Of a stretch of 35,509 bases of DNA, positions 4,799 through 26,215 are shown piece after piece (the stretch's first letter is position 1; each line of letters starts with the position of its first letter). The notes beneath the pieces were generated by a model, which worked only from the letters and a program-made list of their open reading frames with translations, was not told the DNA's origin and ran no database searches. Location: positions 1-35,509 of the IMG/VR virus record IMGVR_UViG_3300020573_000190, one strand, 5' to 3'. A program made the position numbers and the translations under genes. The DNA comes from a virus.

Positions 4799-5051
4799 TT
4801 TCATTTTTGTAAGACGTGAAAAGCCAAATTTCAATACTTCGGAACATACTATTATGTTTAGTATCGAAAGAAATAATGAAAAAACGGATTTGACAGATTT
4901 AGTTTATCTAACAACTCATGCTAATGGCGTAGAGGAATGGGTTCATAAAGATACTTATCAATTTTACTATGACCTTATGCATAAGCATGATAATATAAAA
5001 GAATGGGTGGGATCCGAAGATCATAAAGATTTTTTGGAAGGATTATCATAA
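4767..5051 (+). CDS. Hypothetical protein with an EEWV motif, paralogue of 6732-6953
   Basis: A 94-aa protein with no recognised domain. The segment DLVYLTTHANGVEEWVHKDTY (about residues 41-62) resembles YVCLGVRKDGMEEWVPERQY in the small gene on the other side of the acyl-CoA dehydrogenase, so the two look like diverged paralogues. The RBS (ggaagaaa) precedes the ATG; a second in-frame ATG at 4773 is also possible. Its stop overlaps the first base of the dehydrogenase ATG, which suggests translational coupling. Confidence 0.65.
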   Translation: MKMTKTKPESDFIFVRREKPNFNTSEHTIMFSIERNNEKTDLTDLVYLTTHANGVEEWVHKDTYQFYYDLMHKHDNIKEWVGSEDHKDFLEGLS

Positions 5052-6730
5052 TGAAATACACAGCACCAGTAGAATCGTCAACGTTTCTTCTTCGTGACGT
5101 TCTAAAGTTCGACAATGAACTTACAGAGCCGATTCTAACCGAAGCAGCAAAACTATGCGAAGAAGTTATTGCTCCTACTAATCAAGCAGGAGATTATGGA
5201 TGTCAACATCATCAATATGTGGCAGAAAAATACTTCGTTCTTGTTCCAGAAGAGTTCCATGAACCTTGGAAGAAATTCAAAGAAGGTGGTTGGCTTGGTT
5301 TATCGGTTCCTGAACAATATGGTGGCCAAGGTCTACCCTATACACTTGCGGCTGCGGTCAACGAGTTTGTATCCTCGTCTAACATGGCTTTCTCTCTTTT
5401 TCCTGGCCTTACTCGTGGAAATATTCAAGCACTCCTAGAAGTTGGTTCCGAATATCAGAAAGCAGAGTTCATTCCTAAGATGGTATCTGGTAAATGGACA
5501 GGCACCATGAACCTGACAGAACCACATTGTGGAACTGACCTTGGTTTGATTAGAACTAAGGCTGTCCAGGACGATGCTGCCGGTGGATATAGAATCACAG
5601 GACAAAAGATTTTCATTTCGTGTGGCGAGCATGATCTAGCAGATAACATTGTTCATCTTGTTCTGGCACGTATTGAAGATGATCCAGAAGGCGTCAAGGG
5701 CATTAGCATGTTTCTTGTGCCGAAGTTTTGGATGGACGGTGACGAGAAGATTCGTAACAATGTCTCTTGTGGTTCTATTGAAGAAAAGATGGGCATTCAT
5801 GGTTCACCTACTTGCGTTATGAACTATGATGGTGCTATCGGTATTCTTGTGGGCGAACGCTGCAAAGGTCTAAATGCCATGTTCATTATGATGAATGAGG
5901 CACGTCTCGGTGTTGCTGTTCAAGGTCTATCACAATCGGAGTTGGCTTATCAAAATGCTCTTGCTTATGCCAAAGATCGTATTCAGAGTGCCAAGATTAC
6001 AGATCCCAAAGGTAAGTCTGTTGCTATCATAGAACATCCTGACGTTCGCCGTATGCTTATGGATATCAAATGTATCAATGAGGCTGGACGACTTCTTGTT
6101 CTAGAAGCGGCAATGCTTTGCGATGATAAATCACAAGAAGCACAGGATCGTCTTGGTCTACTAACTCCAGTTCTCAAAGGTGTTCTAACGGATTATGGTT
6201 TTGAGAATGCTGTAAAAGCGCAACAGGTCTTCGGTGGTCATGGATACATCAAAGAGTGGGGTATGGAACAGATTGTTCGTGACGCTCGTATCTGCCAAAT
6301 CTATGAAGGTGCCAATGGTATTCAGGCACTAGACTTGGTTGGTCGTAAGTTGCCAAAGGATATGGGTCGTGCTATTATGACTTTCTTCAATGACAGTGAA
6401 GCATTCTTGACCAGTTCTTATGACAAGGACATCAATTCAATAGTTCAGCCAGTTACAACTTCTCTAAATGAATTGAAACAGGCCACAGAATGGCTGGTTG
6501 CTAATGGTTTGATTAACCCAAACAATGCCGGTTCTGCATCTTATGACTATATGAAGATGTTTGGTCTTGTGTTACTTGGTATGGCGCATATTCGTATCTG
6601 CCTTGCTACTGACGATAAGGACAGACACAATACCGCAGAATACTTTATGAACCGTATTATTCGTGAAACAAACTTTTTGTTATATCGTATTCGTTGCGGT
6701 TCACAGTCGATGATGAAGGCGGAGTTATAA
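5051..6730 (+). CDS. Acyl-CoA dehydrogenase (long form, DmdC/FadE5-like)
   Basis: An FAD enzyme that desaturates an acyl-CoA thioester at C2-C3, passing electrons to an electron-transfer flavoprotein. It is 559 aa, close to the ~590-aa long form (3-methylmercaptopropionyl-CoA dehydrogenase DmdC and FadE5-type) rather than the ~390-aa short form. Visible motifs are GLSVPEQYGGQG (83-94), the FAD-binding TMNLTEPHCGTDLG (152-165), MNEARLGVAVQG (281-292) and QVFGGHGYIKEWGMEQ (392-407). The catalytic base is in ICQIYEGANGIQ, Glu419. A C-terminal helical domain follows. The frame is intact with no missing key residue. The RBS is aagga. In a phage this is an unusual auxiliary metabolic gene; the substrate is unknown and the host would have to supply ETF. 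Confidence 0.92.
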   Translation: MKYTAPVESSTFLLRDVLKFDNELTEPILTEAAKLCEEVIAPTNQAGDYGCQHHQYVAEKYFVLVPEEFHEPWKKFKEGGWLGLSVPEQYGGQGLPYTLAAAVNEFVSSSNMAFSLFPGLTRGNIQALLEVGSEYQKAEFIPKMVSGKWTGTMNLTEPHCGTDLGLIRTKAVQDDAAGGYRITGQKIFISCGEHDLADNIVHLVLARIEDDPEGVKGISMFLVPKFWMDGDEKIRNNVSCGSIEEKMGIHGSPTCVMNYDGAIGILVGERCKGLNAMFIMMNEARLGVAVQGLSQSELAYQNALAYAKDRIQSAKITDPKGKSVAIIEHPDVRRMLMDIKCINEAGRLLVLEAAMLCDDKSQEAQDRLGLLTPVLKGVLTDYGFENAVKAQQVFGGHGYIKEWGMEQIVRDARICQIYEGANGIQALDLVGRKLPKDMGRAIMTFFNDSEAFLTSSYDKDINSIVQPVTTSLNELKQATEWLVANGLINPNNAGSASYDYMKMFGLVLLGMAHIRICLATDDKDRHNTAEYFMNRIIRETNFLLYRIRCGSQSMMKAEL

Positions 6731-21318: not shown

Positions 21319-21395
21319 GGTTCCATAGCTCAACAGGATAGAGCAACCGCCTTCTAAGCGGTAGGTTGAAGGTTCGAATCCTTCTGGGACCGCCA
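21319..21395 (+). tRNA. tRNA-Arg (TCT)
   Basis: Acceptor GGTTCCA/TGGGACC, D-arm GCTC/GAGC, anticodon arm ACCGC-CTTCTAA-GCGGT (anticodon TCT), T-loop TTCGAAT, G73, encoded CCA. Reads AGA/AGG, codons rare in GC-rich hosts. Confidence 0.95.
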
Positions 21396-21401
21396 TTTTA
21401 T

Positions 21402-21492
21402 GGGGGTGGGTGTAAGACACAAGAGGGACTTATAAACCCTTTAGCGGCCGATTACCGTTCTCGACCAGGAGCGTTACCTGGCACCCCTACCA
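21402..21492 (+). tRNA. Aberrant class II (Leu-like) tRNA or tRNA pseudogene
   Basis: Acceptor GGGGGTG/CACCCCT (first pair G-T), A73 and CCA. The T-arm CCAGG/CCTGG has the odd loop AGCGTTA. The long variable arm (CGG...CCG) and GACACAAG after the D-arm are Leu-like. But the D-arm is reduced to GTGT-AAG-ACAC. The anticodon stem has an A-A mismatch giving loop CTTATAA, read as anticodon TAT rather than a Leu anticodon. Either a decayed tRNA-Leu or a tRNA of unusual identity. Confidence 0.5.
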
Positions 21493-21507
21493 ACTTTGGA
21501 GCATGTG

Positions 21508-21636
21508 ATGGAAAAGTTTGAGTTGCTTCTACAGTGTTATAGGTCTGGACAGATGTCCGAGAAGCAATGGCAAGATCATTTGCGAAACGATGAAGGTCTT
21601 GTCGAGTGGTATGTAAACATTCTACAAAATCAATAG
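21508..21636 (+). CDS. Small hypothetical protein (42 aa)
   Basis: RBS ttggag before MEKFELLLQCYRSGQMSEKQ; ends VEWYVNILQNQ with TAG. The pattern SGQMSEKQWQDHLRND resembles a small family found in many large phages. Function unknown. It lies between two array promoters and after the first two tRNAs, so it may be co-transcribed with them. Confidence 0.65.
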   Translation: MEKFELLLQCYRSGQMSEKQWQDHLRNDEGLVEWYVNILQNQ

Positions 21637-21682
21637 ACTAAGGGTGCGTCAAACTGTCGCATCAGATTTTTGAAAAAAGTTC

Positions 21683-21711
21683 TTGACCCAAGCGATTCCT
21701 TGTGGTATGGT
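21683..21711 (+). promoter_or_regulatory. tRNA-array promoter 2
   Basis: TTGACC (21683-21688), 17-nt spacer, TATGGT (21706-21711), behind the shared AAAAAAGTTCTTGAC box. The weaker hexamers suggest lower strength. A terminator follows about 60 nt downstream with no ORF between. Confidence 0.65.
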
Positions 21712-21717
21712 ATGCGA

Positions 21718-21777
21718 ACAGTGAGACGAGAGGGTAGAAGTCAAGGACACGGTGCGACAACCTGACGCACTTTTTTT
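21718..21777 (+). ncRNA. Candidate ~60-nt small RNA
   Basis: The stretch from the expected start of promoter 2 to the T-run of the terminator at 21751-21777 has no RBS/ORF or tRNA. It is purine-rich 5' (GAGACGAGAGGGTAGAAG), then a terminator hairpin, the layout of a short regulatory RNA. Only the promoter and terminator support this. Confidence 0.4.
21751..21777 (+). terminator. Rho-independent terminator
   Basis: GTGCG (21752-21756) pairs with CGCAC (21766-21770) across a short loop, followed by TTTTTTT. The sequence resembles the pmoC terminator (GGTGCGAC...GACGCAC). Confidence 0.7.
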
Positions 21778-21789
21778 CGAAAAAAGTTC

Positions 21790-21818
21790 TTGACTATGCG
21801 TTTTGTGTGCTATATAGT
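21790..21818 (+). promoter_or_regulatory. tRNA-array promoter 3
   Basis: TTGACT (21790-21795), 17-nt spacer, TATAGT (21813-21818), behind the same A-rich box. The spacer GCGTTTTGTGTGCTAT is nearly the same as in promoter 1. It drives the gene at 21848 and probably the main tRNA array. Confidence 0.85.
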
Positions 21819-21847
21819 ATGCGAACGATGACAGAAACGAGGTACGG

Positions 21848-22033
21848 ATGAAAGACGAAACCGTAAAGCGTGACTACTACTGGGTGGTAGAGGCATCCGA
21901 TCCTAACGGTCGGATTAACTACCGCAAAGAGTATCATAATAAAGACGGCTCGGCATTCCGAGATTATGCTCGCTTGAAGGCAACTGGCGCTGTATCTATT
22001 CAGCGTAAGTTCAAGGAGTATAAGATTGCCTAG
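21848..22033 (+). CDS. Small hypothetical protein (61 aa)
   Basis: Starts MKDETVKRDYYWVVEASDPN about 30 nt after promoter 3. Basic and aromatic, with RKEYHNKDGSAFRDYARLKA. No family recognised. Ends in TAG. Confidence 0.6.
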   Translation: MKDETVKRDYYWVVEASDPNGRINYRKEYHNKDGSAFRDYARLKATGAVSIQRKFKEYKIA

Positions 22034-22071
22034 CTACCGCTGTTTGACATTGTGAATAGGGTTATAACTGA

Positions 22072-22148
22072 GGTGCCGTGCCCGGAACTGGTTACGGGGC
22101 GGTCTGCAAAACCGTTTTATGTGGGTTCGAGTCCCATCGGCACCTCCA
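22072..22148 (+). tRNA. tRNA-Cys (GCA)
   Basis: Acceptor GGTGCCG/CGGCACC, anticodon loop CTGCAAA, T-loop TTCGAGT, U73 as expected for Cys, encoded CCA. Confidence 0.93.
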
Positions 22149-22236
22149 ATTACTTTATTGATGGGTGCATCCTTATAAGCCTAAAGATATGGCCTTGAAC
22201 CATATACGCTTAGGGTGCATCTCTCAATAGAGTAAT
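22149..22236 (+). ncRNA. Structured spacer between tRNA-Cys and tRNA-Asn
   Basis: The 88-nt spacer is closed by a 13-bp stem: ATTACTTTATTGA (22149-22161) with TCAATAGAGTAAT (22224-22236), one G-T pair. Inside are CCTAA/TTAGG and ATATGG-CCTTGAA-CCATAT, plus two copies of GGGTGCATC. No tRNA can be drawn. It begins at the base after one CCA and ends 2 nt before the next tRNA. Confidence 0.5.
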
Positions 22237-22238
22237 AT

Positions 22239-22316
22239 TCGGCGATAGCAATCCTGGTGATCGCACTCGGCTGTTAACCGAGATGAAGGTTGGTTCGAGT
22301 CCAACTCGCCGAGCCA
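22239..22316 (+). tRNA. tRNA-Asn (GTT)
   Basis: Acceptor TCGGCGA/TCGCCGA, anticodon arm CTCGG-CTGTTAA-CCGAG, T-loop TTCGAGT, G73, encoded CCA. Confidence 0.93.
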
Positions 22317-22320
22317 ATAC

Positions 22321-22395
22321 CGCCCATTCGTCTAGTGGCTAGGACGCCTGCCTTTCAAGCAGGAAAAAGGGGATCGAAACCCCTATGGGTGACCA
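22321..22395 (+). tRNA. tRNA-Glu (TTC)
   Basis: Acceptor CGCCCAT/ATGGGTG, anticodon loop CTTTCAA, A73, encoded CCA. The T-loop ATCGAAA lacks T54. Confidence 0.92.
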
Positions 22396-22400
22396 ATTAT

Positions 22401-22476
22401 GGACCGATAGCTCAGTTGGTAGAGCAGGGGACTCTTAATCCCTTTGTCGTGGGTTCGAATCCCTCTCGGTCTACCA
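22401..22476 (+). tRNA. tRNA-Lys (CTT)
   Basis: Acceptor GGACCGA/TCGGTCT, anticodon arm GGGGA-CTCTTAA-TCCCT, T-loop TTCGAAT, A73, encoded CCA. Confidence 0.93.
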
Positions 22477-22479
22477 TTT

Positions 22480-22560
22480 GGAACATAACAACAGGACGCT
22501 GACTCTGCGAAGTAAGATATCGGGTTGATCTCCGAGAAGGTATGGAGAGTGTTATGTTCC
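22480..22560 (+). ncRNA. Structured spacer closed by an 11-bp stem
   Basis: GGAACATAACA (22480-22490) pairs perfectly with TGTTATGTTCC (22550-22560), enclosing 59 nt with small internal hairpins (CGC/GCG, CGG/CCG, CTCC/GGAG). It is tRNA-sized, but no T-arm, anticodon arm or CCA end can be drawn. It may be a decayed tRNA or a processing element. Confidence 0.5.
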
Positions 22561-22571
22561 TACTTTATTTT

Positions 22572-22647
22572 GGATCCGTAGCACAATAGGTGGTGCAAGG
22601 GACTTTTAATCCCAAGGCTGTCGGTTCGAGCCCGACCGGATCCTCCA
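22572..22647 (+). tRNA. tRNA-Lys (TTT)
   Basis: Acceptor GGATCCG/CGGATCC, anticodon arm AGGGA-CTTTTAA-TCCCA, T-loop TTCGAGC, encoded CCA. The discriminator is U73, unusual for Lys (normally A73). Confidence 0.9.
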
Positions 22648-22818
22648 ATAGTCGAGCGAAAGCGGTTAAGTTCATAACGACTCAAAATAAGTATGAATGA
22701 GAGTTAGACTAAGTTTTCTTCATTTCAGTGAAGAAAAGACTGGGTCGATGGGAAGTCTCTTTCACTAGGATCAAACTTCCCACTAAGTTTTTTGATGGTC
22801 TGACCGGATCATCCAATT
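22648..22818 (+). ncRNA. Structured 171-nt spacer
   Basis: No ORF or tRNA. It has a perfect 9-bp hairpin TTTTCTTCA/TGAAGAAAA (22714-22737). A 7-bp pair GGGAAGT/ACTTCCC (22750-22781) is followed by TTTTTT (22788-22793), which could be a terminator with a large loop. ACTAAGTTTT occurs twice (near 22709 and 22782). The 3' end GACCGGATC-TCCA echoes the end of the preceding tRNA-Lys, so part may be a duplicated, decayed tRNA. Confidence 0.4.
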
Positions 22819-22892
22819 GCGGGTGTAGCTCAATGGTAGAGCCATAGTCTTCCAAACTAAAGACGAGGGTTCGATTCCCTTCGCCCGCTCCA
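22819..22892 (+). tRNA. tRNA-Gly (TCC)
   Basis: Acceptor GCGGGTG/CGCCCGC, D-arm GCTC/GAGC, anticodon loop CTTCCAA, T-loop TTCGATT, U73 as usual for Gly, encoded CCA. The first anticodon-stem pair is mismatched. Confidence 0.92.
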
Positions 22893-22896
22893 ATAT

Positions 22897-22977
22897 CTTC
22901 ACGTATCCCCCTCGGCTACGAACCGAGAGTAAGGTAACTGGATGAAAATGCAGGTTCGACTCCTGCCGTGAAGGCCA
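22897..22977 (+). tRNA. tRNA-Arg (ACG), aberrant: no recognisable D-arm
   Basis: Acceptor CTTCACG/CGTGAAG, anticodon arm CTCGG-CTACGAA-CCGAG (anticodon ACG), T-arm GCAGG-TTCGACT-CCTGC, G73, encoded CCA. Only 7 nt separate the acceptor from the anticodon stem, so there is no D-arm, while the variable region is about 22 nt. Total length is near normal. Either a D-arm-less tRNA or a rearranged pseudogene. Confidence 0.6.
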
Positions 22978-22983
22978 TTTAAT

Positions 22984-23058
22984 GCTGGTAGGTCGGCAAG
23001 ATGTCGAGGCGCTCTCATAAGGCGTTATAGGTTGGTTTAATTCCAACTATCAGCACCA
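22984..23058 (+). tRNA. tRNA-Met (CAT), elongator or Ile2 type
   Basis: Acceptor GCTGGTA/TATCAGC, anticodon loop CTCATAA, T-arm GTTGG-TTTAATT-CCAAC, A73, encoded CCA. The G1-C72 pair rules out the bacterial initiator. CAT can also be a lysidine-modified Ile tRNA; sequence alone does not decide. Confidence 0.88.
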
Positions 23059-23140
23059 TGTTTGATCTAGATACACAGCCTTTATGGAGTGTCGCAATGC
23101 TAGACAACATTCGTTCCAAGACGTGAGGGACAGCAAGTTT
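23059..23140 (+). other. 82-nt spacer, nothing identified
   Basis: No ORF with RBS, tRNA or strong stem seen between the two CAT tRNAs. Confidence 0.4.
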
Positions 23141-23215
23141 TGCGGTCAGGTGGTCCGGAGACCATTCTTGTCTCATAAGCAAGAGAGCCATGTTCGACTC
23201 ATGGGTCCGCATCCA
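23141..23215 (+). tRNA. tRNA with CAT anticodon (Ile2 or Met)
   Basis: Acceptor TGCGGTC/GTCCGCA with a T6-T67 mismatch, D-arm GTGG/CCAT, anticodon arm CTTGT-CTCATAA-GCAAG, T-loop TTCGACT, U73, encoded CCA. With the CAT tRNA just before it, one is probably Met and one Ile (AUA). U73 fits neither well. Confidence 0.82.
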
Positions 23216-23217
23216 AT

Positions 23218-23291
23218 ATCGGTGAAGTGTTACGGTAGCACGGCAGTCTCCAAAACTGCAAGCCCAGGTTCGACTCCTGGCTCCGGTGCCA
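23218..23291 (+). tRNA. tRNA-Trp (CCA)
   Basis: Anticodon arm GCAGT-CTCCAAA-ACTGC, T-arm CCAGG-TTCGACT-CCTGG, G73 as expected for Trp, encoded CCA. Acceptor ATCGGTG/CTCCGGT has one wobble and a T6-T67 mismatch. Confidence 0.92.
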
Positions 23292-23298
23292 GTTTTAT

Positions 23299-23374
23299 CT
23301 AGGTGTAGCTCAATTGGCAGAGCATCCCGTTTGGGGCGGGAAGGCTGTTGGTTCAAGTCCAGCCACCTAGACCA
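23299..23374 (+). tRNA. tRNA-Pro (TGG)
   Basis: Acceptor CTAGGTG/CACCTAG (C1-G72, typical of Pro), anticodon arm TCCCG-TTTGGGG-CGGGA, T-loop TTCAAGT, A73, encoded CCA. Confidence 0.94.
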
Positions 23375-23389
23375 TTTAGGAAGATATAT

Positions 23390-23557
23390 ATGGATGAAAA
23401 CTATTTGAAGCGCCAAATGATTTTTCGCTTGACAGTGTTCTTTTTATTGAGTATAGTAATAGGGTTCGTTCTATCGGATTTAAATATCCATAGTCAGATT
23501 AGTGGAGATAATCAGAATGTTCAAGATTTCAGAGGAAACCAAGGCAGCGGCAATTGA
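23390..23557 (+). CDS. Small single-span membrane protein (55 aa)
   Basis: RBS aggaag before MDENYLKRQMIF; one hydrophobic span (LTVFFLLSIVIGFVL), then a polar tail with NQNVQDFRGNQGSGN. A start at 23348 would lie in tRNA-Pro and is rejected. Function unknown. Confidence 0.6.
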   Translation: MDENYLKRQMIFRLTVFFLLSIVIGFVLSDLNIHSQISGDNQNVQDFRGNQGSGN

Positions 23558-23657
23558 GGAAATGCGTAAAATTCTAGGTGATGGTCCTACAGACAATCAG
23601 TTGGAAGAGGCATTTGAAGCGGCAGTTGCTATTGTAAAGAAGCAGTTTGGTTTTTAA
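23517..23657 (+). CDS. Small helical hypothetical protein (46 aa)
   Basis: RBS gtggag before MFKISEETKAAAIEEMRKIL; overlaps the end of the membrane protein gene by 41 nt. Acidic and helical (LEEAFEAAVAIVKKQFGF). No family recognised. Confidence 0.6.
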   Translation: MFKISEETKAAAIEEMRKILGDGPTDNQLEEAFEAAVAIVKKQFGF

Positions 23658-23665
23658 TGTATAAT

Positions 23666-23756
23666 GGAGAGTTGGCTGAGTGGTCGAAAGCGGCCGTTTG
23701 CTAAATGGTTGGGCCCTAACCCGGTTCCATAGGTTCGAATCCTATACTCTCCGCCA
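23666..23756 (+). tRNA. tRNA-Ser (GCT)
   Basis: Class II. Acceptor GGAGAGT/ACTCTCC, anticodon loop TTGCTAA, long variable arm (GGGCCC...CCGGTTCC region), T-loop TTCGAAT, G73, encoded CCA. Confidence 0.92.
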
Positions 23757-23760
23757 ATTA

Positions 23761-23849
23761 GGAGTGAGCAACAGGCAAGGAGTCTGCACCGCTTGGAAAG
23801 CGGATGGTCCCCGAAAGGGGATAGGTGTCGGATACCTGCCACTCCGCCA
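23761..23849 (+). tRNA. tRNA-Ser (GGA)
   Basis: Class II. Acceptor GGAGTGA with CCACTCC (last pair mismatched), anticodon loop TTGGAAA, variable arm TCCCC-GAAA-GGGGA, G73, encoded CCA. The T-loop GTCGGAT is atypical (G54, G58). Confidence 0.9.
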
Positions 23850-23855
23850 GTTTAT

Positions 23856-23945
23856 GGAAGAGTAAGCCAGTGGGACTGGCCTTCGTTTCGAAAACGAAAG
23901 GAGCCTGAAATATGGTTTGGGGATCGAGACCTCACTCTTCCGCCA
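23856..23945 (+). tRNA. tRNA-Ser (CGA)
   Basis: Class II. Acceptor GGAAGAG/CTCTTCC, anticodon arm TTCGT-TTCGAAA-ACGAA, long variable arm, G73, encoded CCA. T-loop ATCGAGA lacks T54. Confidence 0.92.
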
Positions 23946-23950
23946 TTTAT

Positions 23951-24025
23951 GCGGGTTTAGTTCAGAGGTAGAACATCGGTGTTACATACCGAGTGTCGGT
24001 GGTTCGATTCCATCAACCCGCACCA
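23951..24025 (+). tRNA. tRNA-Val (TAC)
   Basis: Acceptor GCGGGTT/AACCCGC, anticodon arm TCGGT-GTTACAT-ACCGA, T-loop TTCGATT, A73, encoded CCA. Confidence 0.94.
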
Positions 24026-24033
24026 GAAAGCAG

Positions 24034-24086
24034 AGTTGTCACGCTTCGTCTATGCTTAATAAGGTAGAATAGCGCACCAGACAACT
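24034..24086 (+). ncRNA. Structured spacer closed by a 7-bp stem
   Basis: AGTTGTC (24034-24040) pairs with GACAACT (24080-24086). The interior has GCGCACCA, like a tRNA 3' end, but no cloverleaf. Confidence 0.35.
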
Positions 24087-24095
24087 TATTATAAT

Positions 24096-24172
24096 GCGCT
24101 TGTAGTCCAATTGGTAGAGGCGCTGGTCTTAGAAACCAGATGTTGTAAGTTCGAATCTTACCAGGCGCACCA
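24096..24172 (+). tRNA. tRNA with Leu anticodon (TAG), short variable arm
   Basis: Acceptor GCGCTTG/CAGGCGC, anticodon arm CTGGT-CTTAGAA-ACCAG (anticodon TAG, reads CUA/CUN), T-loop TTCGAAT, A73, encoded CCA. The variable loop is only 5 nt, while bacterial tRNA-Leu is class II with a long arm; the identity is therefore uncertain. Confidence 0.82.
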
Positions 24173-24253
24173 AACGTAGAGGGATTGTAGGTAGACCTGT
24201 AAGAAAACCGTTGCGACGAGTTATGACTGGGTTGTAACCTTCATAGATTTAAT
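24173..24253 (+). other. 81-nt spacer, no gene identified
   Basis: Only short self-complementary stretches (AGGTAGACCT, GGTTGTAACC); no tRNA or ORF with RBS. Confidence 0.4.
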
Positions 24254-24329
24254 GCACTTAGAGGGAGCAGGTGAACCCACTCGGCTGTCAACCGAGTATC
24301 GGCCGGGTCAGTACCGGTTAAGTGCGCCA
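24254..24329 (+). tRNA. tRNA-Asp (GTC)
   Basis: Acceptor GCACTTA/TAAGTGC, anticodon arm CTCGG-CTGTCAA-CCGAG (stem the same as in tRNA-Asn), G73 as expected, encoded CCA. T-loop GTCAGTA is atypical. Confidence 0.9.
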
Positions 24330-24334
24330 TTCAC

Positions 24335-24409
24335 GGGCCTGTAGTTCAGGGGGAGAACGTCTGCTTTGCAAGCAGAATGTCGGCGGTTCGATTCCGTCCA
24401 GGTCCACCA
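24335..24409 (+). tRNA. tRNA-Ala (TGC)
   Basis: Acceptor GGGCCTG/CAGGTCC with the G3-U70 pair that marks Ala, anticodon arm TCTGC-TTTGCAA-GCAGA, T-loop TTCGATT, A73, encoded CCA. Confidence 0.95.
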
Positions 24410-24411
24410 GT

Positions 24412-24544
24412 TTTGTGAGGCAGTATCGATACAAATAATCCGGATGAGCAGAATTGCCACATCGAGGTCGGGAGACGGTGCGAGGCTGTCGTAACCTTGG
24501 GAACCCGGATACTGAAAAGAGGATGCATACTCGTTCCTCACAAA
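24412..24544 (+). ncRNA. Structured 133-nt spacer closed by 9-bp and 7-bp stems
   Basis: TTTGTGAGG (24412-24420) pairs with CCTCACAAA (24536-24544). The adjacent CAGTATC (24421-24427) pairs with GATACTG (24508-24514). An alternative 3' hairpin GAGGA/TCCTC is possible. No tRNA arms are found. It fills the space between tRNA-Ala and tRNA-Glu. Confidence 0.5.
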
Positions 24545-24555
24545 AAAAGTTTTAC

Positions 24556-24630
24556 GCTTCGTTCGTCTATTGGCTAGGACACTCGCCTCTCAAGCGGGAA
24601 AGATGGGATCGATACCCATACGAAGCACCA
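24556..24630 (+). tRNA. tRNA-Glu (CTC)
   Basis: Acceptor GCTTCGT/ACGAAGC, anticodon loop CTCTCAA, A73, encoded CCA. T-loop ATCGATA lacks T54. Confidence 0.92.
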
Positions 24631-24635
24631 TTTAT

Positions 24636-24711
24636 GCTTCTCTGGTGTAGGTGATCCGCACGACTGCCTGAAGAGCAGAAGGACTTAGTTTGATTCTAAG
24701 GGGAAGCACCA
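24636..24711 (+). tRNA. tRNA-Phe (GAA)
   Basis: Acceptor GCTTCTC/GGGAAGC, D-arm GTGT/GCAC, anticodon loop CTGAAGA, T-arm CTTAG-TTTGATT-CTAAG, A73, encoded CCA. The last A of CCA is also the A of the next gene's ATG. Confidence 0.9.
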
Positions 24712-24902
24712 TGATGTTATATTATAAAATCACATATCTTCCGATGTGGAAGAAAGAAGATAAAGAAAACGGTTATGATTGTATAGGTATTGTTATTGGT
24801 GAGCATCGTTGGTATGATACTGATCCTTATAACAATAATCCAATACATAAGATAAAGTATCATCAGTATTCAGAGTTGATGATAGGTGTTATGCCCTCGT
24901 AG
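24711..24902 (+). CDS. Small hypothetical protein wedged between two tRNAs (63 aa)
   Basis: ATGATG at 24711/24714. MMLYYKITYLPMWKKEDKEN, then CIGIVIGEHRWYDTDPYNNN. Its RBS (AAGGGGAAG) lies in the T-stem/acceptor of tRNA-Phe, and its TAG stop lies 10 nt inside the next tRNA. tRNA processing should therefore destroy the mRNA, and translation should compete with tRNA maturation. No family recognised; a start at 24690 is rejected. Confidence 0.6.
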   Translation: MMLYYKITYLPMWKKEDKENGYDCIGIVIGEHRWYDTDPYNNNPIHKIKYHQYSELMIGVMPS

Positions 24903-24969
24903 CCCAATTGGCAGAGGCAGTTGATTCAAACCCAACTTAGTGTCAGTTCGAGTCTGACCGAGGGCACCA
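24893..24969 (+). tRNA. tRNA with Leu anticodon (CAA), short variable arm
   Basis: Acceptor GCCCTCG/CGAGGGC, anticodon arm GTTG with A31-C39 mismatch and loop TTCAAAC (anticodon CAA, reads UUG), T-loop TTCGAGT, A73, encoded CCA. As in the TAG tRNA, the variable loop is about 5 nt, not class II. Its first 10 nt overlap the CDS upstream. Confidence 0.8.
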
Positions 24970-24973
24970 ATTT

Positions 24974-25047
24974 GCTGGGTTAGTGTAATGGTAGCACCCG
25001 AGATTGTGGATCTTGGAGACCAGGATCGATACCTGGACCCAGTGCCA
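24974..25047 (+). tRNA. tRNA-His (GTG), without G-1
   Basis: Acceptor GCTGGGT/ACCCAGT, anticodon arm CGAGA-TTGTGGA-TCTTG, T-loop ATCGATA, encoded CCA. The base before G1 is T and the discriminator is G73, so the universal G-1:C73 pair of tRNA-His is absent. Loss of G-1 is a known alphaproteobacterial trait. Confidence 0.92.
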
Positions 25048-25050
25048 TTT

Positions 25051-25124
25051 GCTCTTGTAGTATAAAGGTATTACACACCCTTGGTAAGGGTGAAAACTCG
25101 GATCGTTACCGGGCAGGAGCACCA
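25051..25124 (+). tRNA. tRNA-Thr (GGT)
   Basis: Acceptor GCTCTTG/CAGGAGC, anticodon arm CACCC-TTGGTAA-GGGTG, A73, encoded CCA. T-loop ATCGTTA lacks both T54 and A58. Confidence 0.92.
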
Positions 25125-25128
25125 GATT

Positions 25129-25202
25129 GCCGGCTTAGTATAATGGTATTACAGTTGACTCGTAATCATCAAACAGAGGTTCGATTCCTCTAGCCGGCAC
25201 CA
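25129..25202 (+). tRNA. tRNA-Thr (CGT)
   Basis: Acceptor GCCGGCT/AGCCGGC, anticodon arm GTTGA-CTCGTAA-TCATC (one T-T mismatch), T-loop TTCGATT, A73, encoded CCA. The D-arm resembles the preceding tRNA-Thr, suggesting duplication. Confidence 0.92.
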
Positions 25203-25234
25203 GAATGTAGACAAACGATTGTAAACATAGCCAC

Positions 25235-25263
25235 TTGACATTCCATTCCGGATGTGCTATTAT
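25235..25263 (+). promoter_or_regulatory. Early sigma-70-type promoter with duplicated leader
   Basis: TTGACA (25235-25240), 17-nt spacer ending TGTGC, TATTAT (25258-25263). The promoter and its ~50-nt leader (GACATAATGA...AAATGGA before the ATG) closely match those at 26864-26920. Confidence 0.85.
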
Positions 25264-25288
25264 AAGACATAATGAGAAAGGAAATGGA

Positions 25289-25762
25289 ATGAATAAGCGG
25301 AACTTGTGGATATTCGATATTGATGGAACGCTGGCTAACAACCTGCACCGTATCAAGCACCTTACCCAGAACACCACGAAGGACTGGGATGCTTTCTTTG
25401 CGGCACAGGATAAGGATGAACCTTACGAAGCCGTTATGCATCTTATGAATACTCTACATAAGACTGGTGATAAGGTTATTGTTATTACTGCCCGTGACGA
25501 GCGTTTTCGTGCGGTTACTCTCCGTTGGTTGCAGCAGCATTGTGATTACGATTTTCCTGATGGCGATCTTTTCATGCGTAAGAGTGGTGATCGTACCGAC
25601 GATGATAAGATCAAGTTGGATATTCTAAATGAGTATCTTTCTCTGTTTCATCCTCGATATAAAGTGATGGGAGTGTTCGAGGATCGGCATCGTGTTATTG
25701 ATGCGTGGCGTGAAGCTGGTTACTATGTGTTTGAGTGTAACCAGGATCGTGCCGATTTCTAA
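25289..25762 (+). CDS. HAD-family phosphatase, polynucleotide kinase 3'-phosphatase-like
   Basis: A 157-aa protein: FDIDGTLANN (Asp10/Asp12) is HAD motif I, VITARDERF (about 71-79) fits motif II, and MGVFEDRHRVIDAW (about 130-143) fits the motif IV region. This is the layout of the C-terminal phosphatase domain of T4 Pnk/PseT, without the kinase half. It would remove 3' phosphates from RNA or DNA ends. Its position inside the tRNA array fits RNA end repair after host anticodon nucleases, but this is inference. The start at 25289 is set by the RBS (agaaagga) and promoter. Confidence 0.8.
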   Translation: MNKRNLWIFDIDGTLANNLHRIKHLTQNTTKDWDAFFAAQDKDEPYEAVMHLMNTLHKTGDKVIVITARDERFRAVTLRWLQQHCDYDFPDGDLFMRKSGDRTDDDKIKLDILNEYLSLFHPRYKVMGVFEDRHRVIDAWREAGYYVFECNQDRADF

Positions 25763-25769
25763 AGTTTAC

Positions 25770-25843
25770 TGTCCCTTAGCTCAAAGGTAGAGCAATGTGC
25801 TGATAACACATAGACACTGGATCGTTACCAGTAGGGACAACCA
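25770..25843 (+). tRNA. tRNA-Ile (GAT)
   Basis: Acceptor TGTCCCT/AGGGACA, D-arm GCTC/GAGC, anticodon arm ATGTG-CTGATAA-CACAT, A73, encoded CCA. T-loop ATCGTTA is the same unusual one as in tRNA-Thr(GGT). Confidence 0.92.
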
Positions 25844-25976
25844 GTTTATCCTGCTTTCTAGATACGCAGGAGAGGCCTAGCGGGAATAACAGAAGGGAAT
25901 GCCCGTGAATATCGGATTGCTGACTTCATTAGCTAAAGGGCTAAACCGATAAGGCGTATGGAATATGTGTGAGCGG
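25844..25976 (+). ncRNA. Structured spacer before tRNA-Tyr
   Basis: 133 nt without a gene. Hairpins: TCCTGC/GCAGGA (25849-25871) and TATCGG/CCGATA (25910-25951), with an inner GCTAAAGGGCT. No long closing stem, no tRNA. Confidence 0.35.
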
Positions 25977-26058
25977 CAACGGCGGTGGTGTTGCAGCGGA
26001 CTGTAAATCCGTTCCCTTTGTGGTAACATTGTAGGTTCGAATCCTACCTCACGCACCA
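25977..26058 (+). tRNA. tRNA-Tyr (GTA)
   Basis: Class II. Acceptor GTGTGAG/CTCACGC, anticodon loop CTGTAAA in CGGA/TCCG, long variable arm, T-loop TTCGAAT, A73, encoded CCA. Confidence 0.92.
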
Positions 26059-26065
26059 TCTTTAT

Positions 26066-26140
26066 TCGGGGATAGTTAAATTGGCATAACGTCGGATTTT
26101 GGTTCCGACTTTCTAGGTTCGAGTCCTAGTCCCCGATCCA
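26066..26140 (+). tRNA. tRNA-Gln (TTG)
   Basis: Acceptor TCGGGGA/TCCCCGA (U1-A72, usual for Gln), anticodon arm TCGGA-TTTTGGT-TCCGA, T-loop TTCGAGT, encoded CCA. U73 instead of the usual G73. Confidence 0.92.
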
Positions 26141-26141
26141 T

Positions 26142-26215
26142 TCAGGAATAGTTCAACGGTAGAACAGCGGACTCTGACTCCGTTAATCTTGGTTCGAATC
26201 CAGGTTCCTGATCCA
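26142..26215 (+). tRNA. tRNA-Gln (CTG)
   Basis: Acceptor TCAGGAA/TTCCTGA, anticodon arm GCGGA-CTCTGAC-TCCGT, T-loop TTCGAATC region, U73, encoded CCA. Last tRNA of the array, 1 nt after the previous CCA. Confidence 0.92.

Follow-up and report, generated by a model that had tools for sequence, protein, structure and literature searches.

The window analysed here is IMG/VR record IMGVR_UViG_3300020573_000190, a 35.5-kb fragment (35,509 nt in all) of a freshwater T4-like phage, which carries a dense tRNA array and, within it, an arginine tRNA gene whose parts follow one another in an unusual order. Genes for a DNA polymerase, a UvsX-like recombinase and a DnaB-like helicase lie upstream of the array. 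The polymerase is at most 49% identical to those of isolate phages, while it occurs at 100% identity in IMG/VR contigs L002 and L003 and at 53-89% in many others, several of which carry the same tRNA order. Beside these replication genes, 30 tRNA genes are clustered in 4.9 kb, as in other phage tRNA arrays. The array and the parts of the arginine tRNA gene are as follows.

21319..26215, plus strand: array of 30 tRNA genes, all 20 amino acids named (ARAGORN, Rfam RF00005 and a CCA-anchored search; order kept in relatives)
22897..22977, plus strand: permuted tRNA-Arg(ACG), the whole element including the encoded CCA (CCA search; 91.5 bits with model R1; row 1 of alignment A1)
22897..22903, plus strand: 5′ strand of the acceptor stem, partner 22967-22973 (alignment, pairing counts)
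22907..22908, plus strand: 5′ strand of the D-stem, C11 C12, partner 22933-22934 (alignment, covariation, pairing counts)
22911..22927, plus strand: anticodon arm inside the D-stem, 5 bp, loop CTACGAA, anticodon ACG at 22918-22920 (alignment, pairing counts)
22933..22934, plus strand: 3′ strand of the D-stem, G37 G38 (alignment, pairing counts)
22936..22942, plus strand: D-loop-like AACTGGA (equivalents of A14 A15 Y Y G18 G19 A20), placed after the D-stem and not within it (alignment)
22950..22966, plus strand: T arm, loop TTCGACT (alignment)
22967..22977, plus strand: 3′ strand of the acceptor stem, discriminator G and CCA (alignment)

The element thus runs from the 5′ acceptor strand through the D-stem 5′ strand, anticodon arm, D-stem 3′ strand, D-loop, variable region and T arm to the 3′ acceptor strand. 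We found the same order in an alignment of 150 copies (155 distinct copies minus five with an 8-nt spacer), which read acceptor 5′ strand, U8 A9, N C11 C12/G12 N13, anticodon arm, four bases, D-stem 3′ strand and UAAYYGGA, and then a variable region with a final U, the T arm and the acceptor 3′ strand. The D-arm of a cloverleaf would stand between the acceptor stem and the anticodon arm; here, this gap measures 7 nt in 150 of the 155 copies and 8 nt in five, which is too short to hold one. The 3′ half is not encoded upstream, as it is in circularly permuted tRNA genes, since the acceptor 5′ strand comes first and the acceptor 3′ strand with CCA comes last. In the motif AAYYGGA and the U that precedes the T stem we would place A14, the A15-U48 pair, G18 and G19, a set of core contacts assigned from the sequence. 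All 150 copies have T as the U48 equivalent, and 149 have A as the A20 equivalent. A first reading of the D-loop as AAGGTAA with a weak AGT/ACT hairpin was dropped because copies with the anticodon TCT show GG/CG at this place, pairing with C11 C12/G12.

Pairing was counted in raw pattern hits with a fixed 7-nt spacer and no pairing filter (98 ACG-type and 87 TCT-type). In the ACG-type hits, the acceptor stem was paired at 7/7 positions in 92, while the anticodon stem and the T stem were each paired at 5/5 positions in 94; four hits, which come from bacterial genomes, look like mere chance matches. In the TCT-type hits, full pairing was found in 79 for the acceptor stem, 84 for the T stem and 57 for the anticodon stem, with 4/5 pairs of the latter in 24 more. 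The 5-bp anticodon arm closes a 7-nt loop with U33 in 95/98 and 87/87 hits, respectively. As in a cloverleaf, there is a 7-bp acceptor stem with CCA (present in 122/150 copies) and a T arm of 5 bp with the loop TTCRA, the T-loop sequence being part of the search pattern.

The D-stem deserves separate consideration because it distinguishes the permuted tRNA-Arg from a D-armless tRNA-Arg with a long variable region, in which pairing around the anticodon arm would not really form. D-armless tRNAs are known in mitochondria, as the available text of PMC7609411 describes. RNAalifold run without a supplied structure found the acceptor, anticodon and T stems but did not predict the D-stem pairs, and the ACG group forms only two such pairs. 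However, the 5′ side of the D-stem was in no search pattern, and its two sides nevertheless agree at both first pairs in 94/98 ACG-type and 86/87 TCT-type unfiltered hits, with a third pair in 85/87 of the latter and four pair types in all. The D-stem flanking the anticodon arm also covaries: it is CC/GG in the ACG group, while the 55 TCT copies show CGG/CCG (48), CGA/TCG (4), CGT/GCG (2) and CTC/GAG (1). CTC/GAG is the form in Escherichia coli phage phi92, and Streptomyces phage Francob carries CGC/GCG. In the TCT rows of alignment A1, the third pair formed in 38/38, as compared to 30.8 expected by shuffling. A D-armless molecule is thus unlikely in our view.

Another possibility is that only the gene is rearranged and that cutting and religation of its transcript yield an ordinary cloverleaf, in the manner of circularly permuted tRNA genes; such genes, whose RNAs are processed back, are described in PMC10085705. 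Here, however, the internal order is changed, so that circularization and one cut cannot restore a cloverleaf, and covariation extends over all stems of the permuted form, as in a single RNA. We regard such rejoining as highly improbable.

Several observations weigh against the permuted architecture or reduce the force of the evidence for it. The full structure pairs in 97.0% of cells of alignment A1 (89 rows), as compared to 62.4% when shuffled and 36-45% when slid, but these percentages are inflated, as rows were extracted only when three of the four stems (acceptor, anticodon and T) were paired. The invariance of TTCGA, GTAA, GG and part of the anticodon loop is partly by construction, as these were in the search patterns. 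The position of a third D-stem pair in the ACG group is C, G or A opposite A, and pair 12-37 changes just twice on the tree, so its covariation amounts to few events. The discriminator is T in 52/84 ACG copies, which is unusual for arginine. In 25 of 246 occurrences, there was no other ARAGORN tRNA in the stretch examined. Last, the generic Rfam tRNA model scores several permuted copies above threshold (38-44 bits), although such scores fit a true tRNA relative.

Model R1 separated the permuted copies (61-91.5 bits) from anything else (at most 38.7 bits, 46 sources), while ARAGORN calls overlapped just 2 of the 246 occurrences. Their anticodons are almost uniform in meaning. A scan by AGTAAGGTAACTGGA alone, with no anticodon constraint, returned 53 true copies, all with arginine anticodons, and the 150 aligned copies carry ACG (84), TCT (55), TCG (7), GCG (3) and TAT (1), so that 149/150 are arginine anticodons. 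In the 221 occurrences with another tRNA in the stretch examined, the next one is a median of 9 nt away. A canonical CGN tRNA was present in the examined stretch for 19/158 CGN-type occurrences (some loci overlap on one contig). Among 16 related T4-like loci, the CGN reader was the permuted one alone in 10 and a canonical one alone in 4; two arrays, cut by the contig end, had neither, and no locus had both. A canonical Arg-ACG occupies the slot of the permuted element in L029 and L037; the canonical CGN reader stands elsewhere in the array in L060 and in a more distant array in L079.

An almost exclusive use of arginine anticodons could also be expected of a decoy, that is, an RNA that is not charged but imitates the arginine anticodon arm and thereby titrates host enzymes cleaving tRNA-Arg. 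Anticodon nucleases such as colicin D, and a counter-role of phage tRNAs, are described in the available part of PMC10264068. A decoy would nevertheless have no need of an acceptor stem, a TTCGA loop, CCA or the A20 and U48 equivalents, and relatives place a canonical Arg-ACG in the same slot. We therefore give the decoy a low probability, and consider it probable that the CGN reader of the array is a non-circularly permuted tRNA-Arg that works in translation.

The permuted tRNA-Arg is widespread, with about 150 distinct, mostly unannotated copies in IMG/VR and isolates. Two anticodon-typed pattern scans of IMG/VR gave at least 120 and 119 stretches. BLAST detected unannotated copies, mostly inside tRNA arrays, in unrelated isolates including Mesorhizobium phage Cp1R7A-A1, Xanthomonas phages XacN1 and X1, Stenotrophomonas phages DLP_6 and RAS14, Microbacterium phage Zooman and Rhizobium phage RHph_I1_18; CM1, whose record is without annotation, was also matched. 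The TCT form was found in Pseudomonas phages Bitten, ventosus, UAVern and PAK_P2, Stenotrophomonas phage SOVA965 and Limnohabitans phage DC31, as well as in Francob and in phi92, where it lies at 51874-51955. In the stretches viewed of PAK_P2, SOVA965 and DC31, no annotated tRNA adjoined the element save an edge-cut tRNA-Met in SOVA965. Two phi92-like records label the element tRNA-OTHER or tRNA-Undet. When 84,980 genomes of bacteria and archaea were scanned, eight stretches were obtained; four were real, all of these with 10 to 18 ARAGORN tRNAs in the stretch. R1 matches occurred in 10/199 genomes of one bacterial family, some apparently as single copies, and one plasmid record matched. Permuted copies with few or no tRNAs nearby were seen in bacterial genomes at L433 and L434, and a tRNA array of Pseudaminobacter soli that holds a permuted tRNA-Arg also contains a GOLLD RNA (L301:1139-1605). 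In T5-like phages, BLAST matches share the 3′ part only; the Salmonella phage beppo element (L179:1470-1544) shares this part without the anticodon arm and may be a remnant, and its 30.4 bits with R1 fall in the canonical range, so it was not counted.

The remaining features of interest in the window are the following.

21402..21492, plus strand: class-II-like tRNA, anticodon TAT, with a variable arm of a 5-bp stem and a 7-nt loop containing GAT (CCA search; alignment A2)
22984..23058, plus strand: tRNA with CAT anticodon and T-loop TTTAATT (sensitive Rfam search, CCA-anchored search)
23761..23849, plus strand: tRNA-Ser(GGA) with an atypical T arm, also in L085 and L031 (CCA-anchored search)
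25289..25762, plus strand: HAD_PNKP phosphatase gene within the array (family search; homologues in relatives)
11930..12004, plus strand: isolated tRNA with the amber-reading anticodon CTA (ARAGORN, Rfam RF00005)
12025..12111, plus strand: mini-ORF just downstream of the CTA tRNA, with an in-frame TAG at 12043-12045 and a TGA that overlaps the ATG of the next gene

A preliminary description, made from the sequence alone, had counted about 30 tRNAs for all 20 amino acids. The total of 30 agrees with its anticodon tally, and all 20 amino acids are named, but arginine is complete only when the odd Arg-ACG is counted. Of the two strangest tRNAs, it had taken one as ordinary and the other as a Leu-like oddity: the latter is the Ile-TAT element at 21402-21492, the former the permuted tRNA-Arg. 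ARAGORN, proposed there as a check, called 27 tRNA genes in the window, 26 within the array plus the CTA tRNA at 11930. At gathering score, RF00005 matched 23 in the window, 22 of them in the array; a more sensitive search raised 22984-23055 (33.6 bits) and 22897-22974 (30.7 bits) above the cut-off, giving 24/30, with the Tyr tRNA just under it at 28.5 bits. Five of the 30 had no RF00005 match even in the sensitive search (Ile-TAT 21402, Met 23141, Ser-GGA 23761, Ser-CGA 23856 and Asp 24254). The CCA-anchored search added four genes missed by ARAGORN: Ile-TAT 21402-21492, Arg-ACG 22897-22977, CAT 22984-23058 and Ser-GGA 23761-23849. Its candidates at 22689-22782 and 23438-23541 were weak and not tRNA-shaped and were left out of the tally. 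Low generic tRNA scores in the window could mean that the odd tRNAs are pseudogenes decaying in a degrading array. Against this, their stems show compensatory changes throughout and they also occur in unrelated phages, and decay does not explain the array because relatives keep the same tRNA order; we give decay next to no credence. Between the tRNAs, the spacers 22149-22238, 24410-24555 and 25844-25966 fold strongly, one of them into a long, almost perfectly paired hairpin tipped by a 7-nt loop.

The Ile-TAT element belongs to a family of 13 distinct sequences (alignment A2; members include L107, L031, L224, L253 and L126), in which 99.7% of 349 cells pair and 18/27 pairs show double changes, with a finder that required a paired acceptor, anticodon and T arm but not the variable arm. 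This variable arm resembles a second anticodon arm, with an invariant GAT in the 34-36 slot and no U33. No GenBank phage matched the family. One permuted copy, L362:4648-4744 (minus strand), has the anticodon TAT and a long variable region, and its acceptor GGGGGTG is like that of the Ile-TAT family.

The TAG of the mini-ORF was kept in 6/6 IMG/VR stretches in a scan that allowed any codon there, and its readthrough by the CTA tRNA could control the next gene. Genome-wide recoding of TAG was rejected because this codon, although rare, still serves as a stop: among ORFs no shorter than 150 aa, it ends 7/114, 5/65 and 11/124 in three related contigs and 1/20 in the window. Elsewhere in the window, a phage gene at positions 5051-6730 encodes a protein similar to acyl-CoA dehydrogenases, in which the N-terminal, middle and C-terminal domains are all present.

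Next, we evaluated the decoding capacity of the array on the 6128 codons of the 20 window ORFs that are no shorter than 150 aa. With expanded wobble rules, the 30 tRNAs read 57/61 codons and 95.8% of codon occurrences, as compared to 77.4% under strict wobble; ACA, TCA, TTA and CGG have no reader and make up 4.2% of window codons. Thus, the set still leans on host tRNAs. Arg-ACG 22897-22977 is the sole array tRNA predicted to read CGN codons, which account for 63% of arginine codons in the window. Large phage tRNA arrays are already known, and the claim that nearly complete decoding sets are rare was too strong, as PMC12482277 reports a phage whose 26 tRNAs serve 19 amino acids. Resistance to host tRNA depletion, also suggested in the preliminary description, is plausible in view of the PNKP-type phosphatase in the array and RtcB in related contigs, but the array is not complete. 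Homologues of the HAD_PNKP gene occur in relatives at 50-58% identity, in L048 likewise in the Thr-Ile gap. The RNA ligase RtcB is present in the near-identical contig G001 and in G002, as full-length genes (G001:C1:92967-94106 and G002:C1:25491-26624), and was not found in G000 or G003. RNA_lig_T4_1 (PF09511) and RNA_ligase (PF09414) had no match in the four records, the PF09511 search being without a positive control. HAD_PNKP and RtcB support, without proving, the array as an answer to tRNA cleavage, in which it would serve as a translation kit replenishing tRNAs in the infected cell, with RNA-repair genes in support.

How might a permuted tRNA-Arg function in such a kit? Its RNA would be processed and CCA-ended like the neighbouring tRNAs, with the anticodon arm capping the D-stem and the D-loop AAYYGGA following the D-stem 3′ strand. 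It would fold to a two-stack L, since stacking of the D-stem on the anticodon arm and contact between the D-loop motif and the T loop would both be preserved. The usual tertiary partners are present (U8, A14, A15 with U48, G18 G19, TTCGA), as are A20 and C35, which we take to be arginine identity bases, and because of these the RNA should form the L, be charged by the host arginyl-tRNA synthetase (ArgRS) through C35 and A20, and decode CGN. In the ACG form, A34 would be converted to inosine by the host enzyme, and the RNA would read CGN codons. As a reason for the shape, we propose escape from tRNases that read the normal tRNA shape, which would fit the arginine-only pattern. Colicin D is arginine-specific. 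We put forward only tentatively the wider proposal that this is a new natural tRNA topology, active for arginine codons across many phages and selected because shape-reading, tRNA-cleaving host defences miss it.

It is taken for granted that the cloverleaf parts keep one order in bacteria and their viruses. If correct, a tRNA of another order would show the real needs of the ribosome, ArgRS, RNase P, EF-Tu and the modifying enzymes, provide a new engineering chassis and extend phage genomes by many hitherto overlooked genes. Because phages easily handled in the laboratory (phi92-like E. coli phages and PAK_P2) carry copies, the proposal is directly testable, including against tRNA-cleaving defences.

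A phage tRNA of this architecture was not found in the literature, within a coverage mostly without subscription journals. The permuted tRNA-Arg shares with the canonical cloverleaf tRNA-Arg the 7-bp acceptor stem, CCA, the TTCGA T arm, a 7-nt anticodon loop with U33, arginine anticodons and the tertiary bases; in contrast, its D-loop and anticodon arm swap the ends of the D-stem, which has just 2-3 pairs. Allo-tRNA and tRNA-Sec alter stem lengths, not the order of parts. They are likewise non-canonical bacterial tRNAs (PMC7609411, in the text available). D-armless mitochondrial tRNAs, described in the same source, also have no D-arm 5′ of the anticodon arm, whereas the permuted tRNA has a D-stem and a full D-loop motif elsewhere in the order. 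The closest likeness in rearrangement is to non-circular permutations in noncoding RNAs, in which the order is altered and the three-dimensional places are kept (PMC10085705); tRNAs come up in the accessible portion of that work only with regard to genes that are circularly permuted and whose products are processed back, from which the permuted tRNA-Arg differs. Finally, the role proposed for the array is like that of phage tRNA arrays countering tRNA-cleaving defence, which, in the part of PMC10264068 available, escape by mutation of the anticodon loop, while here escape would be by architecture.

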